Shown here in pieces: positions 1,217 to 10,588 of a stretch of DNA of 18,594 nt. The notes below the pieces were generated by a model that saw only the letters and a program-made list of their open reading frames with translations, searched no databases and had not been told where the DNA came from. Each line of letters opens with the position of its first letter. Position 1 is the first letter of the stretch. Made by a program: the position numbers and the translations under genes. The stretch is from Bdellovibrionales bacterium (GTDB taxonomy: Bacteria; Myxococcota; XYA12-FULL-58-9; SYDY01): NCBI GenBank assembly GCA_005801425.1, contig SYDY01000079.1, forward strand, positions 1-18,594. The letters run 5' to 3'.

Positions 1217-1778
1217 CGGGGCCTCGCGTCAATCGAAAGCGATGTGTTTCCCCCGGAGCCATGCGAACAGGCGCTGTAAGGCCCAAGGGCACGGCCTTTA
1301 CACCATGCAGATCCGATGACGTCAATTGCCAGGGTGGAATAGCCTGCACAAAAACCTCAACGTCTGAGGTTTTGGGTAGGATGTGGATGATGAGATCGCC
1401 CGAAGCGGGCGGGACGCCCGCGCTCCCAGGCCATTTCCAGGTACTGAGCGCCGTGGCTTCCACATGGACGGACCGATGATCATTTTTTTTTAACCGCGCA
1501 TCGATACTCCATTCTTCAATGGGGGTATCGTTCCATGCGACGCGAAGTCCCGACAATGCCTGCTTCGTCATGGCATGGGCCTGGGGCAAGATCCCCAATG
1601 CGCCTTTGCGCGAAATGGCCGTACGGCTTAAAATCCCCACCCCCGCGTCGTCCACTTGAAAAACAAAGGACAGATGGGTTTTGGCAGAATGAGCGTGCGC
1701 CTGCCATGCACTTAAGATGGCAACAACAACAATCAGTGATGGCCACTGATGTGCATAAAGACGCGGCGAATATCCCAT
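1119..1778 (-). CDS. small exported protein of unknown family
   Basis: This 219-residue protein (ATG at 1778) begins with a signal peptide: a short n-region, hydrophobic core (LIVVVAILSAW) and an AHA/H cleavage site near residue 29. GGGAG lies 7 bases before this ATG, which favours it over an in-frame TTG at 1784. The mature part looks beta-rich and ends in a tail (APGETHRFRLT) common at the end of Ig-like or beta-sandwich domains. I do not recognise the family. It starts 46 bases inside the 3' end of the large PHP lipoprotein gene, so translation is probably coupled. Two oddities: an in-frame palindromic repeat encodes PGSAGVPPASG near residues 117-127, and the last 98 bases overlap folD. 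The tail in the overlap (Gly/Thr/Arg/Pro-rich) looks unselected, as if a stop was lost. A secreted partner of the upstream lipoprotein is possible from context only. Confidence 0.7.
   Translation of the reverse strand: MGYSPRLYAHQWPSLIVVVAILSAWQAHAHSAKTHLSFVFQVDDAGVGILSRTAISRKGALGILPQAHAMTKQALSGLRVAWNDTPIEEWSIDARLKKNDHRSVHVEATALSTWKWPGSAGVPPASGDLIIHILPKTSDVEVFVQAIPPWQLTSSDLHGVKAVPLGLTAPVRMAPGETHRFRLTRGPDDSHDLKRQTTGTGTSQGHGRTGTPVRPKTRP
1397..1430. repeat. GC-rich palindromic repeat inside a coding region
   Basis: The block contains GCCCG-AAG-CGGGC (1398-1410), then GGGAC and a further GCCCG, so two alternative hairpins share one arm. On the minus strand it reads in frame as Pro-Gly-Ser-Ala-Gly-Val-Pro-Pro-Ala-Ser-Gly. 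This peptide is the usual translation of a widespread GC-rich intergenic repeat, by my recollection of predicted proteins. Only one copy is visible in the window, so its dispersed nature is inferred. Confidence 0.55.
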
Positions 1779-4700
1779 GGCCAATCTCCCTTGCTTTCAG
1801 GCACTGTTTGCTCAGAAGCCACACTGCGACCGACGCTACGCCCTGGGGCTCGCGCAGCACATTGTTCTTTGGTCAACGCCTTGGGTGCTGGCCCAAAAGA
1901 TACCGTGTTGCCGGGTGGATCAAAATGACCGTCGTTGTCGACATCAAGCCAAATGGGATTGGTCAACGCATAGGCATAAACTTTTTGAACAAAATCAGGC
2001 GACAAAATACCAGCAGCAAAGGTGGACCCACCGCCTGTTAATGATCCCGTGATCCCCGTCAATGCCTCGCTGATATTCGCAGGTGGCGTTTCATTGGGCG
2101 TGGCCACCGGGAACATGCTGTGTGTGCTCACCGCTTCGGCCACCAGCACCACGTCTTTCGCCACACTAAAAGTCCGCACCACCGTGTATTCTGAATTTTG
2201 CCCAGCACGGCTTCGATCGACAGGGACGCTATGAATGATTTCTCCATTGGCATAAATGTTGATGGTATCCACACTGATCCACGGCGCCGTACGCAAATCG
2301 AGAACCACCGTCACCGTTTTGGTATCATCAGAACCAGGCAAGGGCACCAAACTCCCCTGGTGCCACTCCTTCTTGCTCGCATCACGCACACGCAGCAACA
2401 AAAAGGGCCCGGTGCTTATGGTGACCCGTTGCGATCGAAACGCATCGACAAGATCGCGGTCAGAGAAAATCCCTGGGTGGCCATCGCGATTTCTCCCATT
2501 GCTATCTCGCGTCACGTGAAAATAGGTTCGCGGATTTCCAATTTCTTCGCCCGTATCATGGCTGTCAGAATTGCCTGTTGCAGTAATACGCAATCCACGG
2601 TTGAGTAAATGCAACCAGTCATCGACCGCCCCTGGATACTCGTGTTGTCCATTGCTATCCAACAAAATTTTTCCAGCACCGTTTTCGGGGTGACCCCCAT
2701 TGCAATCAGAATCAAGAATTTTGGTAACCGCCGCGTCCGGCACGTCGATTGGCACACGAAAGGGATGATTCATATCCATGCGCTTGCCGTTGAAGACTTC
2801 GATGGCATCAAAATTCACCGAGAATTTTCCAGCCGCGAATTGCTTGGTCGTGACATTGTTGGGCGAAAAATACGATCGCGTATCGGGATTAAGAATCGAT
2901 GGTTCGCCAGGAGGCTCTGCCTCCATCGTATACGAATTCGTATAGTATTGATGAAAATATCCCAAAATAGCATCACGCGGATGATTGACCTGAATAATCG
3001 TATTTTCAGATCCTAAGCTCCCGATAGCACGCAGCGACGAAAACAGTTGATCGGGCGAGCATTGTACCCAGTCAAACGCAATACCGCGCGCTTTCTCGCC
3101 TTGTGCAGGAAAACACGATTCCACAAAGGGGAAATGAGAGGGTGTATCCGGTGTGTATTTGAGAGGAAAACCATTAAAATGGCCCATCTCCAAAGTCGAC
3201 AATTCAACACCCACCACGTTGCGTACCCAATCGTTCAATCCCAACATACCAATGGTCGGACGATAATCGGTGATCACGTTGTGATCGGTCGACACCAACA
3301 CTTCAAGACCTTCGGCCGCTGCAGTGATCACGCGGCTGTCAAAGGCCATGCTCGAATCAAGCGATGCGCCGCCATGCACGTGAAAGTCTGCCGACAGATA
3401 ATCATCGGTATTGATTGCGCGTAGCAACTGCACACGAAATGGTGTTGTTTCACCTGCCTTCAGCGTCACGCCTTCTTCAACATGCAGCGTGTATTCGGGA
3501 CCATGGGAAATATAAATTTGATACGTACACTTGGCATCGCCATCACAGCGCGATGGCCGCACAGGCAACACCGCAAAACCATTGCGTGCAAAACCTTGGG
3601 CTTGAATAAACTGTCGCTTGCGTTGCCCCACAGGATCACGCCACGTCAAGTCCGTGGGTTTGCGTGATGCGCCCAGATGAAATTGAAACAAAAATTCTTT
3701 GGGGTCGAGTTCATCATGCTGCGAACCATACTCACCCACCACGGTCACTTTGGCGGGAAGAGCACGGCCATCGCCATCACGCACGTCGACCATCAAAATG
3801 GCTGGATCCGGCAACCGAATATAGGACCATTCGGTATCCCCTGCCGCATCGATCGTAAACGTAAAATTCGCATCGGGTGTTTCAGGGAATGGATAGCGGC
3901 CTTCGGATGTTACCTGGTAGGTATACGTTCCAGGCTCAAGTTCTCCCACAAATTCACCCAATGTATTGGTACGCATCTGATTGTAGGGATTGCCATCCTG
4001 GTCAAAAATATGAACCCATGCGTTTTGTATGGCTTGGCCTGTGTGTTCGCTTAATATTTGTCCCGCAAATGTTCCTGTCGCAATCCCTCGAATTTTGTAA
4101 AGTTCATCGCGAATGGACGACACATCGCCATTCCCCACAATAAAGTAACGTGTGTACTCAAACGTATCGCCAAAATTTTCAAGCGTCGGTGGTACTTCAT
4201 ACATCACCGCAGCAAATGCGCTGATCAAAAAAGGAACCAGCATGCTGTGCTTGGTGATTTTTGCTTGGGGATCACGACCGTAATAATCGCGATTACGCCA
4301 TGTATAATTGCGTTCACTGTCACCGACGGCAAAACCGTAACTCACATCATCACCGGCGGTTGCCAAAAAGTCGGTCACCATGCCTGGAAACAAAAGCGTG
4401 CTTGGCGCAGGATTGGGCGGGGGCAATTTGTAGCTTTCTTCCACTGCAAATCGCAGATCAAACCCAATGGGCTTTTTATTGCCAAGTCGCGCTTGGTGCT
4501 CAGGCCGTCTACTTACCGAACCTGGGGCAAAAATCGTATTGCCACCCCCAAAGAGCGCGACCTCCCCTAAAGGAATATCGGAATTGACCAAATCAAGGCC
4601 TTCAGGAAGTGCGGATTCCAAAGTCGCCGCACTGCTTGTTGGAAATGTTAAACGTTCGTTGGACTGGCTGATCAAACGCCCCACCACGCGCACATGGGAT

Positions 4701-5329
4701 GCACCCGGTTCCAAAATATAATCGGTTTCAAAAAAAACAGATGGCAGCAGATTGCTTAATAGAAAATGGGCCATGGTGAGAAAATCACCGCCTTTGGCCC
4801 GTGTACGGATCACAGCGGCTTTGCCGTCGCTGCCATCGTTGATTACTTCAATACCTGCAAGATCGACTGTTTTATTCTGTGCAAGATCAAAACGCTTTTG
4901 ATCGTCCACATCAAAGGCTTGCAAAAAAAGGGCAGGAAACAATTCTCCGAAATTGTCGAGGCCAAGCCCACCCGATCCGTCAACGCCCGTGGATGGGCGA
5001 ACAATATCGGCATCAATAATACCGCCACCAAAAACACCAAATCCCCGCGACCATCCTTGGTCTTGAATGATCACACGGATGCGATCGTTGCCAAGGATGT
5101 AATCCCCCACAGTACCAATGGCACCGGGTCCACCGATCAATTGTTGCGATGTGCTCACGCGCGCAGCGTAGGCATGGGGATCGGTGTTTTCGCATGCGAG
5201 AAAACACATCATTGAGAAGAATAAAACGATGTAGGGGCGCTTCGCGAAGCGCCCGTGCAGCATTTGAATCAAAGTCTTATTGGGCGGTTCACGAACCGCC
5301 CCTACAGCGGGGGTCATGTTTGTTCTCAT
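1733..5329 (-). CDS. large lipoprotein with CehA/McbA-type PHP metallohydrolase domain
   Basis: This 1198-residue protein has a complete set of PHP-type metal-binding motifs: FHVH (H650, H652), TDHN (D682, H683), E709, H717, VNHPRD (H783) and GNSDSH (D922, H924). This pattern is typical of the CehA/McbA branch, whose members hydrolyse ester, carbamate or phosphoester substrates; the substrate here is unknown. The N-terminus carries a hydrophobic segment ending in FLAC, with C46 as the probable lipidated cysteine. Residues about 50-410 look like a beta-rich domain, 415-500 like a transthyretin/carboxypeptidase-regulatory-like sandwich (GQILSEHTGQAIQNAWVHI), and 1000-1070 like another beta domain. 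The ATG at 5329 overlaps the porin stop as ATGA, which supports this start and translational coupling. An in-frame palindromic element supplies residues 9-33, giving an unusually long leader; ATG at 5263 is an alternative start. The protein is much larger than a lone PHP domain. Confidence 0.88.
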   Translation of the reverse strand: MRTNMTPAVGAVREPPNKTLIQMLHGRFAKRPYIVLFFSMMCFLACENTDPHAYAARVSTSQQLIGGPGAIGTVGDYILGNDRIRVIIQDQGWSRGFGVFGGGIIDADIVRPSTGVDGSGGLGLDNFGELFPALFLQAFDVDDQKRFDLAQNKTVDLAGIEVINDGSDGKAAVIRTRAKGGDFLTMAHFLLSNLLPSVFFETDYILEPGASHVRVVGRLISQSNERLTFPTSSAATLESALPEGLDLVNSDIPLGEVALFGGGNTIFAPGSVSRRPEHQARLGNKKPIGFDLRFAVEESYKLPPPNPAPSTLLFPGMVTDFLATAGDDVSYGFAVGDSERNYTWRNRDYYGRDPQAKITKHSMLVPFLISAFAAVMYEVPPTLENFGDTFEYTRYFIVGNGDVSSIRDELYKIRGIATGTFAGQILSEHTGQAIQNAWVHIFDQDGNPYNQMRTNTLGEFVGELEPGTYTYQVTSEGRYPFPETPDANFTFTIDAAGDTEWSYIRLPDPAILMVDVRDGDGRALPAKVTVVGEYGSQHDELDPKEFLFQFHLGASRKPTDLTWRDPVGQRKRQFIQAQGFARNGFAVLPVRPSRCDGDAKCTYQIYISHGPEYTLHVEEGVTLKAGETTPFRVQLLRAINTDDYLSADFHVHGGASLDSSMAFDSRVITAAAEGLEVLVSTDHNVITDYRPTIGMLGLNDWVRNVVGVELSTLEMGHFNGFPLKYTPDTPSHFPFVESCFPAQGEKARGIAFDWVQCSPDQLFSSLRAIGSLGSENTIIQVNHPRDAILGYFHQYYTNSYTMEAEPPGEPSILNPDTRSYFSPNNVTTKQFAAGKFSVNFDAIEVFNGKRMDMNHPFRVPIDVPDAAVTKILDSDCNGGHPENGAGKILLDSNGQHEYPGAVDDWLHLLNRGLRITATGNSDSHDTGEEIGNPRTYFHVTRDSNGRNRDGHPGIFSDRDLVDAFRSQRVTISTGPFLLLRVRDASKKEWHQGSLVPLPGSDDTKTVTVVLDLRTAPWISVDTINIYANGEIIHSVPVDRSRAGQNSEYTVVRTFSVAKDVVLVAEAVSTHSMFPVATPNETPPANISEALTGITGSLTGGGSTFAAGILSPDFVQKVYAYALTNPIWLDVDNDGHFDPPGNTVSFGPAPKALTKEQCAARAPGRSVGRSVASEQTVPESKGDWPWDIRRVFMHISGHH
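5230..5306. repeat. palindromic repeat element with inverted ends, in frame in the lipoprotein leader
   Basis: The outer ends are a 10-bp perfect inverted repeat (TGTAGGGGCG at 5230-5239, CGCCCCTACA at 5297-5306). Each end holds its own palindrome: GGGCGCTTCG/CGAAGCGCCC at left (perfect, 20 bp) and GGGCGGTTCA/CGAACCGCCC at right (one mismatch). About 27 bases of non-palindromic sequence lie between them. This resembles a MITE-like or paired-REP unit. The part from 5231 to 5305 is exactly 75 bases, so it leaves the surrounding reading frame intact. Confidence 0.8.
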
Positions 5330-6708
5330 CGGAACAATACCTGCCCCGCCAAGGCCACGATATCATTGGGGATGGATCGTCCGCCTTCTTCAAGGCTTCG
5401 TGTGTAATCAAGAAGCATGATGATAGGCCAGTTGCTTGGTGCATAACGCAGGCCCACCGTATGATGCATCACCCGTGCGAAGTCTTCGCTGGTGCCTGTG
5501 CCTCCGGTGCGACGAAACCGTGGATCGTAATAGGCATAACGATAACTCAAAAACAGATCATCCCACATAGGGATGATATTCACCGAAAGCTGCGCATGGC
5601 CACCGAGGGCATGCTCTTTTACATTCCCGATATCGCGATCGGTGAGTTGATAAATAACCTGTCCACGAAATCGAAACATCCACCGGTGTCCACGAAAATG
5701 AAACATCCGCCAGTTGACCGTCGCATCGAAACTTGCGGCGCCCACGTCATCGGAAATTTTATCAGGCGCATTGCCCGAGCTTACACGATTGTAAAAGCCA
5801 CCGATGCCCAATACCGAATACAAACCTTCTGTCTTTTTATTGTTTTGGGTCGCTGGACCTTCTTCGTCACCGTTCTCTTCTTTTCCCGTGGTCAATGACA
5901 TGCGGGCGTACACTGCCGGCAAATCGTTGTCGTTGAGCGACATCGTCGCTTTGCTTCCGTTGGTCACGGCAAGGGCGTATTCGAGACTTTGACGCCTGGA
6001 CAATGCCTGTGAACCCGAGAGCATCATGCCCACTTGATACCCCTGATCAAAACCATGGAGATCGTTACCGATGCCTTCATTGCGCACCACACCACGCGAT
6101 TCCAAAGCACGACGCACAAAATATTGCTCAAAGACAGGGGTTAACGATTCCATATCAAACGGCGGTTTGAAACGCCCAGCCCACAGCGTGGCCAGATTAT
6201 GAAATTTAAAACTCAAATAGGCGTTTTTTACCCCCACCGTCACTTCACCCGACGGACTGTTGGCATCGGTGTAACGAACCACCGAGGCATCAAGACCGAT
6301 ACGTGCATAGAGTCTTTCTTTGTATGAAGCACGCAGATTGATGCGCGCATCATCGATCCCAAAACCGTCGTTGCGCCCAACGTTGGGATCGCGCACGCTT
6401 TCGTTATCGTCCTTGGTCGGAATAAAAAAGAAACGACCTGCCGTGCTGGTTGTAAAACCTGCCGTCAAATAACCGTCAAATGAAAGTTTAAAACCATTTT
6501 TGGTGGTAAGCGCTGTGATGCCCGGCGGTGGCGTGGGGGCTGGCGCTGGGGCGACCGAAGGCGTAAGCACAACAGGAGGTGCCGGAACTGCCACAACGGG
6601 CTCCGCAGGAACCACGGGCTCACCGGGGGATGCGGCTGTTTGTGCAAGGGCCAGCGAAGAAAAAAGAAGAACAAAACAACACAAAGCAACACCAGCACTT
6701 CTCCCCAT
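5326..6708 (-). CDS. outer-membrane porin, Porin_O/P (OprP/OprO-like) type
   Basis: The protein has 460 residues from ATG 6708. A signal peptide (hydrophobic ALCCFVLLFSSLALA, cut before Gln) is followed by a Pro/Ala/Val-rich linker to about residue 65. Amphipathic beta strands with alternating aromatics then run to the end (DYTRSLEEGG...QVLFR), as in outer-membrane barrels. Diagnostic of the phosphate-selective porin family are GFKLSFDGYLTAGF, the DDARINLRASYKERLYARIGLD strand pair and WAGRFKPPFDMESLTP. The exact ion or solute is unknown: selectivity residues of OprP cannot be assigned by eye, and many family members are not phosphate-specific. GAGGTGG 6 bases before ATG 6708 decides this start over the in-frame TTG at 6723. 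It is the first gene of the tightly packed minus-strand run, sharing ATGA with the PHP lipoprotein gene. Confidence 0.85.
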   Translation of the reverse strand: MGRSAGVALCCFVLLFSSLALAQTAASPGEPVVPAEPVVAVPAPPVVLTPSVAPAPAPTPPPGITALTTKNGFKLSFDGYLTAGFTTSTAGRFFFIPTKDDNESVRDPNVGRNDGFGIDDARINLRASYKERLYARIGLDASVVRYTDANSPSGEVTVGVKNAYLSFKFHNLATLWAGRFKPPFDMESLTPVFEQYFVRRALESRGVVRNEGIGNDLHGFDQGYQVGMMLSGSQALSRRQSLEYALAVTNGSKATMSLNDNDLPAVYARMSLTTGKEENGDEEGPATQNNKKTEGLYSVLGIGGFYNRVSSGNAPDKISDDVGAASFDATVNWRMFHFRGHRWMFRFRGQVIYQLTDRDIGNVKEHALGGHAQLSVNIIPMWDDLFLSYRYAYYDPRFRRTGGTGTSEDFARVMHHTVGLRYAPSNWPIIMLLDYTRSLEEGGRSIPNDIVALAGQVLFR

Positions 6709-6714
6709 TACAAA

Positions 6715-6721
6715 CCACCTC
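6715..6721 (-). promoter_or_regulatory. ribosome binding site that sets the porin start
   Basis: GAGGTGG on the minus strand lies 6 bases before ATG 6708. The in-frame TTG at 6723 overlaps this site and is therefore unlikely to be the start. A TTGACA hexamer lies further upstream (minus strand, near 6774-6779), but no convincing -10 follows at normal spacing. Confidence 0.6.
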
Positions 6722-6847
6722 AACTATATTTTGCTGCTACGAACATGCATTTCGTGCACAGAACATACATCAGCTGTCAATGGGATTTTGTGAAGCGCGA
6801 ATAACAATCATAATAAGAAAAATAACAAAAAAAAGAGACGGCAAAGT

Positions 6848-7699
6848 TCAAAGAGATTCTATTGCTGCAAACAATGCTGCCTTTTCTTTCACACGCGCAA
6901 TCACATCTTCGAGCGGAACGCGACGGTACAGATTGTTTTCTCCCATCGGGTACCAGCTCAACGACGATGTTTTTCGAACATCACCTTCCCAATCGGATAA
7001 AAGAATACCCATTCTAGTTCCATCAGCACATGGAGAAATACCACCCAAGAATCCCACGTGCTCGGTACTCATCGGAACGCCGGATTGGATATCGATCTCC
7101 ATAACGATGTCAGCCCAATGGGCATCGGTCACCGTGCTGTGTGCCGTAATCCACTCCCCCGGGCCATCCATCCACGCAATGCCTGGTGCACAATAGCGCG
7201 TATCGCTGCACACGAGATCGCCTTCATCATTTTCTTCATCGGCATATTTTTCATCTTCTTCAAGATAAAAGCAGTGAACCTCATGCGCTGTCAGAAGTTT
7301 AGCGGCGACCAATTCACTCAAAACAAACGATGCACAATTTAAAGGTGTTGGTGCGGGCAAAGGCGACGGAAACGATTGACCGCCCTCGACTGCCGTAGCA
7401 AGCCAGGTACGAAATGGATATGGCGCCTCCACATAGGCTTCAGGGAAAAGGTCATAGGGATCATGCGGAATAGAATAGCCTGACAATACTTCGTAATCTG
7501 CTGCCCTCGGGAGGGTCAAAGCAATCAACTCTTGATAGGGCATTGTACGTGGTTCACCCCACACAATCCCTTGGGCACGACGATGTTCAGCGCTCTGAAG
7601 GATCCCCATACGCGTTTCCAGTGAAATCGCAGGCACCGTGGTTTTGGGACGAGCATCCGACGCAGGAATAAATTCTATGGTTCTAATATGGGACACCAT
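6848..7699 (-). CDS. protein A: unrecognised protein with NlpC/P60-like Cys...His pattern
   Basis: This 283-residue protein (ATG 7699) is a clear paralog of the protein encoded at 9731-10588. Shared blocks are HRRAQGIVWG near residue 40, PLPAPTPLNCxSFVLSELV around C122, MDGPGEWITA, WADIVM at 195-200, HVGF at H214, LLSDWEG and GENNLYRRVPLE. NCxSFV followed by ADIVM and HVGF resembles the NlpC/P60 order (DCSGFV, GDLVFF, HVGIYLG), so C122 and H214 are candidate catalytic residues and D236 a possible third. An acidic stretch (EEDEKYADEENDEGD) lies between Cys and His. No signal peptide or membrane segment is seen, so it is predicted cytoplasmic unless exported another way. No ribosome site is visible. 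I chose ATG 7699 because it aligns with the paralog's MVS start; ATG 7717 is an in-frame alternative. The peptidase assignment is a hypothesis; the gene and paralogy are firm. Confidence 0.75.
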   Translation of the reverse strand: MVSHIRTIEFIPASDARPKTTVPAISLETRMGILQSAEHRRAQGIVWGEPRTMPYQELIALTLPRAADYEVLSGYSIPHDPYDLFPEAYVEAPYPFRTWLATAVEGGQSFPSPLPAPTPLNCASFVLSELVAAKLLTAHEVHCFYLEEDEKYADEENDEGDLVCSDTRYCAPGIAWMDGPGEWITAHSTVTDAHWADIVMEIDIQSGVPMSTEHVGFLGGISPCADGTRMGILLSDWEGDVRKTSSLSWYPMGENNLYRRVPLEDVIARVKEKAALFAAIESL

Positions 7700-7783
7700 G
7701 CGCAAGTGTACAAACATGGCCGAAGAAAATCAGGATATTGTTGGCGAAGGATGTTTGGGCACCTTGCGCACATCACACGATAC

Positions 7784-9730: not shown

Positions 9731-10588
9731 TCAAACGTCCATAGCGTTTGCCGCATACCATGCAGCTTTTTCCTTCACACGCGCAATGACACCTTCGAGA
9801 GGAACGCGACGGTACAGATTGTTTTCTCCCAAGGGACACCAGTTTAATGTCGATGTTCTTCGAACGGAGCCTTCCCAATCCGATAACAAAACACCGGTAC
9901 GTCCGCTTCCATTGGGGTCTTGGCCAATACCCGTAAAAAATCCCACGTGTACTGTGTACATCGGAACCTCGGATTGCGTATCCACCGCCATCACGATATC
10001 CGCCCACTGGTGGGCATCAGACGCTATATTTTGCGCAGTAATCCATTCTCCCGGACCATCCATGCTGCCGATGATGGACGAGCAATAACGTGGATCCGTA
10101 CAATCGCCCTCATTTTCATCATCGATATCTTCGTATCCATATTTTTCATCTTCTGCGCGATAAAAAAGATGAACTTCTTGTGCAGTAAGAAGTCTCGCAG
10201 AAACCAATTCGCTTAAGACAAAAGAGACGCAATTCAAAGGTGTGGGTGCAGGCAACGGTTGCGGGAAATGATCGCCTGTATCGGCGGCGGTTTCGAGCCA
10301 CTCTCGAAAAAAATAGGGCACTTCACCATAGGTCTGACCAGGAAGACGATACGCCGAATAACCCGTCAGTGTTTGGTATCCAAGGATTGCGGGGGCTTCC
10401 AACGTCATGAATTTTTCATCGGGCATCATGCATGGTTTGCCCCATACAATCCCTTGGGCCCGTCGATGCTGAGCACTTTCAATGATCCGCATTCGGGTTT
10501 CTACTGCAATTTCAGGCACAATGATTTTTGGCGGTGCGCCAGCAGCAGAAACAAATCCAATTGTTCGAAAATCACATCGAGAAACCAT
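9731..10588 (-). CDS. protein B: paralog of protein A, NlpC/P60-like Cys...His pattern
   Basis: This 285-residue protein starts at ATG 10588 (MVSRCDF). It shares nearly all blocks with protein A: HRRAQGIVWG, PLPAPTPLNCVSFVLSELV with C120, MDGPGEWITA, WADIVM at 195-200, YTVHVGF with H214, LLSDWEG with D237, and the near-identical end NNLYRRVPLEGVIARVKEKAA. Differences cluster around residues 50-110 and in the acidic stretch (AEDEKYGYEDIDDENEGD). It has no signal peptide or membrane segment, and no ribosome site is seen. The reading frame is open upstream to a TAG, with only CTG as an extra possible start, and the DNA upstream of the ATG is also similar to that of gene A. It is the first gene of the long minus-strand run and lies 144 bases before the NagB/PIG-L gene. 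Cysteine-peptidase function is inferred from motif order only. Confidence 0.75.
   Translation of the reverse strand: MVSRCDFRTIGFVSAAGAPPKIIVPEIAVETRMRIIESAQHRRAQGIVWGKPCMMPDEKFMTLEAPAILGYQTLTGYSAYRLPGQTYGEVPYFFREWLETAADTGDHFPQPLPAPTPLNCVSFVLSELVSARLLTAQEVHLFYRAEDEKYGYEDIDDENEGDCTDPRYCSSIIGSMDGPGEWITAQNIASDAHQWADIVMAVDTQSEVPMYTVHVGFFTGIGQDPNGSGRTGVLLSDWEGSVRRTSTLNWCPLGENNLYRRVPLEGVIARVKEKAAWYAANAMDV

Follow-up and report, generated by a model that had tools for sequence, protein, structure and literature searches.

Within genes, GTAG-tagged REP dimers that encode 20–30 residues were described by Di Nocera et al. (2013), who found them often at the N-terminus and frequently in genes of DNA synthesis and repair (PMC3733652). 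REPINs (Bertels and Rainey 2011, PMC3116915) and BIMEs are inverted REP pairs that, with their spacer, make one long hairpin and disperse as a doublet; REPINs were described as extragenic, each class having a neighboring RAYT (PMC3116915). The Rickettsia palindromic elements (RPEs) are palindromic repeats held in frame in unrelated protein genes and were ~150 bp long as first reported (Ogata 2000/2002, reviewed in PMC10969869); two short families, RPE-4 and RPE-6, carry a CGTC tag (PMC3733652).

We analyzed an 18,594-nucleotide stretch of the genome of an uncultured Bdellovibrionales bacterium assigned to the Myxococcota, referred to as the window. It contains a palindromic element that has the sequence characteristics of GTAG-type REPs and of REPINs. 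As in the REPs of Di Nocera et al. (PMC3733652), there is a GTAG head, a palindromic stem, an inverted dimer and in-frame coding. As in REPINs and BIMEs, an inverted REP pair and its spacer disperse together. Unlike the REPINs of PMC3116915, the element lies in frame within ORFs, and no intact cognate RAYT was found. The original prediction had likened it to RPEs. The in-frame palindromic insertion is indeed common to both, but the RPEs are longer and belong to a different lineage; moreover, the CGTC tag of RPE-4 and RPE-6 is absent from the window element, both ends of which are GTAG-headed. Strictly speaking, the nearest precedent is found in the intragenic GTAG-type REPs and not in the RPEs.

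The element and its host gene

The dispersed element spans exactly 75 bp (5231–5305, GTAG...CTAC). Its minus-strand translation provides residues 9–33, VGAVREPPNKTLIQMLHGRFAKRPY, of a 1198-codon ORF; the predicted position, length and residues were exact in both sequence and translation. GTAG heads both REP units, whose palindromic stem-loops are GGGCGGTTCGTGAACCGCCC and GGGCGCTTCGCGAAGCGCCC. The REP motif matched the window four times, as compared with zero expected, and all four matches were inside the element: the palindromic repeat is far above chance. When extended beyond the ends of the element, the inverted repeat had arms of 41 nt with 76% complementarity. The RNA from 5215 to 5345 (131 nt) had a folding energy of −56.6 kcal/mol versus −35.0 ± 4.1 kcal/mol for dinucleotide shuffles (z = −5.25), and in the predicted fold the inverted doublet and spacer form one long hairpin in the transcript.

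Features of the locus, with coordinates in the window
Feature	Position	Strand	Basis
75-bp REP doublet (REPIN/BIME-like), 25 in-frame lipoprotein-leader codons	5231..5305	-	dispersed copies, in-frame translation
REP unit 1 of coding strand: GTAG + GGGCGGTTCGTGAACCGCCC	5282..5305	-	
27-nt spacer separating the REP units; in-frame ATG 5263 inside	5255..5281	-	
REP unit 2, opposed: GTAG + GGGCGCTTCGCGAAGCGCCC	5231..5254	+	
CehA/McbA-family metallohydrolase lipoprotein, start ATG 5329	1733..5329	-	NF038032, CarboxypepD_reg, orthologs
Codons 1–8 (MRTNMTPA), coupled start to element	5306..5329	-	
Hydrophobic core and lipobox, IVLFFSMMCFLAC	5192..5230	-	sequence; FLAC also in ortholog L065
Porin upstream; stop overlaps lipoprotein start (ATGA)	5326..6723	-	Porin_O_P

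The host ORF matched NF038032 (CehA/McbA metallohydrolase) with an E value of 2.3e-29. The protein had been predicted to be a PHP lipoprotein: the lipoprotein assignment stood, and the family was refined to CehA/McbA. Read by eye, an n-region, a hydrophobic core and a lipobox cysteine are all present (IVLFFSMMCFLAC). The porin-lipoprotein gene order occurs in nine loci, including the window. In four of the nine, from four genomes, the porin stop overlaps the lipoprotein start in the conserved context CAGGT...ATGA.

The orthologs supported the proposal that the element was inserted in frame: they are element-free, and their leaders match that of the window protein once the 75 bases are subtracted. 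Specifically, the ortholog from G001, a repeat-free genome of the same order, has the leader MNCRIGLVALLLLGGGLISC, a 20-residue stretch up to the lipobox cysteine. Without the element, the window protein (MRTNMTPA joined to IVLFFSMMCFLAC) reads MRTNMTPAIVLFFSMMCFLAC and has 21. The 25 residues are likewise missing from the other orthologs, so the observation named in advance as contrary to an insertion, their presence in repeat-free orthologs, was not made. The nearest orthologs are ~45–50% identical, so the exact pre-insertion sequence is presumptive.

The ortholog in G004 (~50% identical) retains the ATGA start and has ~82 residues before the lipobox cysteine. Most of these residues, from approximately codon 12 to codon 55, match a different dispersed repeat, for which the G004 genome has 42 matches; the copy in the leader is a fragment of a longer repeat. 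This unrelated repeat (L032, G004:C27) is in frame and has a core of 132–135 bp; G004 belongs to another family of the order. The G004 lipoprotein may instead use a downstream GTG start. The case is a lead, not proof, that the lipoprotein leader is a recurrent insertion site.

Elsewhere in the window, two similar ORFs of ~285 residues each (6848–7717, without a Pfam match, and 9731–10588) flank a gene that fuses glucosamine-6-phosphate isomerase and PIG-L domains. The two look like a local duplication.

The dispersed family

As the original prediction had proposed, the genome was searched for the element and for copies within genes. BLAST retrieved ~40 copies from the 3.38-Mb genome, most with 85–95% identity. 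Strict pairs of the form GTAGGGGCG-N35..65-CGCCCCTAC numbered 38 in the genome, as compared with one for the reversed-pattern control; the order's other genomes that were searched, seven in number, had none. The count of GTAGGGGCG was 144 per strand in the genome versus 38/34 for the control. The canonical length of 75 bp was observed in 27 of the aligned copies. Frame 0 was stop-free on each strand in 26 of these 27, with consensus translations of VGAVREPPDKTLIQRPHGRFAKRPY or VGALREAPVRPLNQSFIGRFTNRPY. The window copy departs from the consensus at four positions, and other copies share three of these changes. Around many copies the repeat extends further (...GGTGTTCTCTT[75]ATAAGAAAAATAAG...); in the window, only the core is present. 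The flanks of L003, L005, L016, L021 and others share a longer consensus (TTCCTAAGAAACTTGAATTGAGCAGGTGTTCTCTT ... ATAAGAAAAATAAGTGG), which suggests that the 75-bp core may belong to a larger composite repeat.

We infer that the element was moved by a RAYT-type transposase. The genome has four Y1_Tnp matches; no intact RAYT with REPs of this kind on its flanks was found. The best candidate and most RAYT-like gene, L082 (G000:C1:5033-5197), has GTAGGGGCG near its 5' end and no full REP hairpin. It is broken after NHFHLVLWP by an insertion of ~190 bp, the ends of which look complementary, and its 3' half resumes downstream.

The family is mostly extragenic: reading frames were traced in the sequence surrounding the hits, and convincing ORFs contain seven of the ~50 copies examined, including the copy in the window. 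In an MlaE permease (C80; PF02405, E 7.5e-40), the element is N-terminal (MKKHKDVILA[25]KRTPDLL...), and the segment is missing from order-level orthologs. In HemD (C100; PF02602, E 2.4e-36), it occupies a variable stretch that extends from IPLI to FEWIAFASRNGV and comprises 37 residues, as compared with roughly 15–24 in four orthologs. Subtracting the element leaves only 12 residues, which makes a loss of host residues probable. The match of HemD to solved structures was too weak for placing the insertion, and order-level relatives were used instead. A helicase-nuclease (C21) has a 67-bp relative that encodes residues 501–522, between its UvrD_C and PDDEXK_1 domains. Its length of 67 bp is not divisible by three; had this copy been inserted, adjacent bases would also have had to change. 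This GTAG dimer in the linker of a UvrD-type enzyme (L086, G000:C21:3274-3340) fits the bias toward DNA-repair genes published by Di Nocera et al. (PMC3733652).

Four of the seven in-ORF copies (C71, C16, C15 and C81) lie in leaders of lipoproteins or secreted proteins, a point on which the family differs from the intragenic REPs of Di Nocera et al. (PMC3733652). In the second lipoprotein, C16, the orthologs have short leaders of ~17–20 residues. In the exported proteins C15 and C81, the closest start codon in frame is within the element itself. The 72-bp copy in C81 (L078, G000:C81:20661-20732, minus strand) provides AGGGG and a GTG at the head of an exported-protein ORF of 436 codons that does not run in frame 0; this GTG is possibly an element-born start. 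A long plus-strand ORF at L078 was rejected as antisense to the minus-strand exported-protein ORF. A search for orthologs of the secreted protein at L016 returned only two weak matches. It is conceivable, and for now tentative, that palindromic repeats in this lineage preferentially land or survive in export leaders, where they would supply n-regions and sometimes start codons. Besides these four copies, the idea draws on the unrelated repeat in the G004 leader; the concentration concerns only seven cases and was recognized post hoc.

Insertion, start codon and alternatives

Based on the orthologs and the dispersed copies, a GTAG-type REP doublet (REPIN) was probably inserted after codon 8 of the lipoprotein gene and tolerated in frame, a reading to which we assign a probability of about 0.84. 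One REPIN among the ~40 related genomic copies would have landed behind codon 8, its 25 extra residues lengthening only the n-region of the signal peptide. This peptide should be removed at the lipobox cysteine, leaving the mature protein unaltered, and translation most likely still begins at 5329 by coupling to the porin stop. The insertion would have survived because 75 bp is divisible by three, frame 0 is open on both strands and the position is disposable. We infer that export and processing are normal and that the effect is near-neutral.

Alternatively, the hairpin could be retained for a role in the RNA where the porin and lipoprotein genes meet; there it would stabilize the 3' end of the porin mRNA and lower lipoprotein expression, its coding being incidental. 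The element starts 20 nt beyond the porin stop, a usual place of a REP (PMC3733652), and forms a highly stable RNA structure in the predicted fold. Against this, the frame is translated and ribosomes would melt the hairpin; the junction in G001 has a short, unbroken leader; and copies of the family also occur mid-gene, in HemD and the helicase-nuclease. We regard this alternative as unlikely.

The ATG at 5263, which the original prediction had raised as a gained start, would yield a 24-residue signal, MLHGRFAKRPYIVLFFSMMCFLAC, of normal length and with a basic n-region, the first half of the element then being untranslated leader RNA. Di Nocera et al. warn that many N-terminal REPs may indeed be untranslated (PMC3733652). 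Predicted accessibility failed to separate the candidate starts, but the pairing with the anti-Shine-Dalgarno sequence did: it was −8.5 kcal/mol at 5329, the only good value, and near nil at 5263 (−1.5 kcal/mol), which has no Shine-Dalgarno sequence before it. This ATG also sits midway in the long hairpin; the AGG-to-ATG change that creates it recurs in two 75-bp copies outside long ORFs; and it is the ATGA start at 5329 that is conserved. Initiation at 5263 is therefore quite improbable. An assembly or binning error in which the repeat joins unrelated DNA is very improbable: the draft genome comprises 121 contigs, and copies of the repeat lie at or close to the ends of several, but the ORF is unbroken over 1198 codons, and the join across the element is right because the flanking porin and lipoprotein are a pair conserved in eight other loci.

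In-frame insertion of GTAG REPs was already known (PMC3733652); the Myxococcota lineage and the recurrence in export leaders, in a few cases, are new. The terms "myxo", "Haliangium" and "lipoprotein" do not occur in the main text of PMC3733652. Our literature search returned nothing relevant on intragenic REPs in Myxococcota and no earlier report of a REP or RPE insertion in an export leader or signal peptide. With the preferred reading, an insertion after codon 8, the locus would extend to the Myxococcota the conversion of repeat DNA into protein sequence known from Rickettsia, here by way of GTAG-type REPs. The copies within ORFs suggest a simple rule for the survival of such insertions, namely that they persist in domain linkers, in variable loops, in N-terminal tails and in leaders that are cleaved off. 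Since the signal peptide does not remain in the mature protein, coding sequence derived from repeats, and new start codons with it, could enter genes at little cost through leaders.
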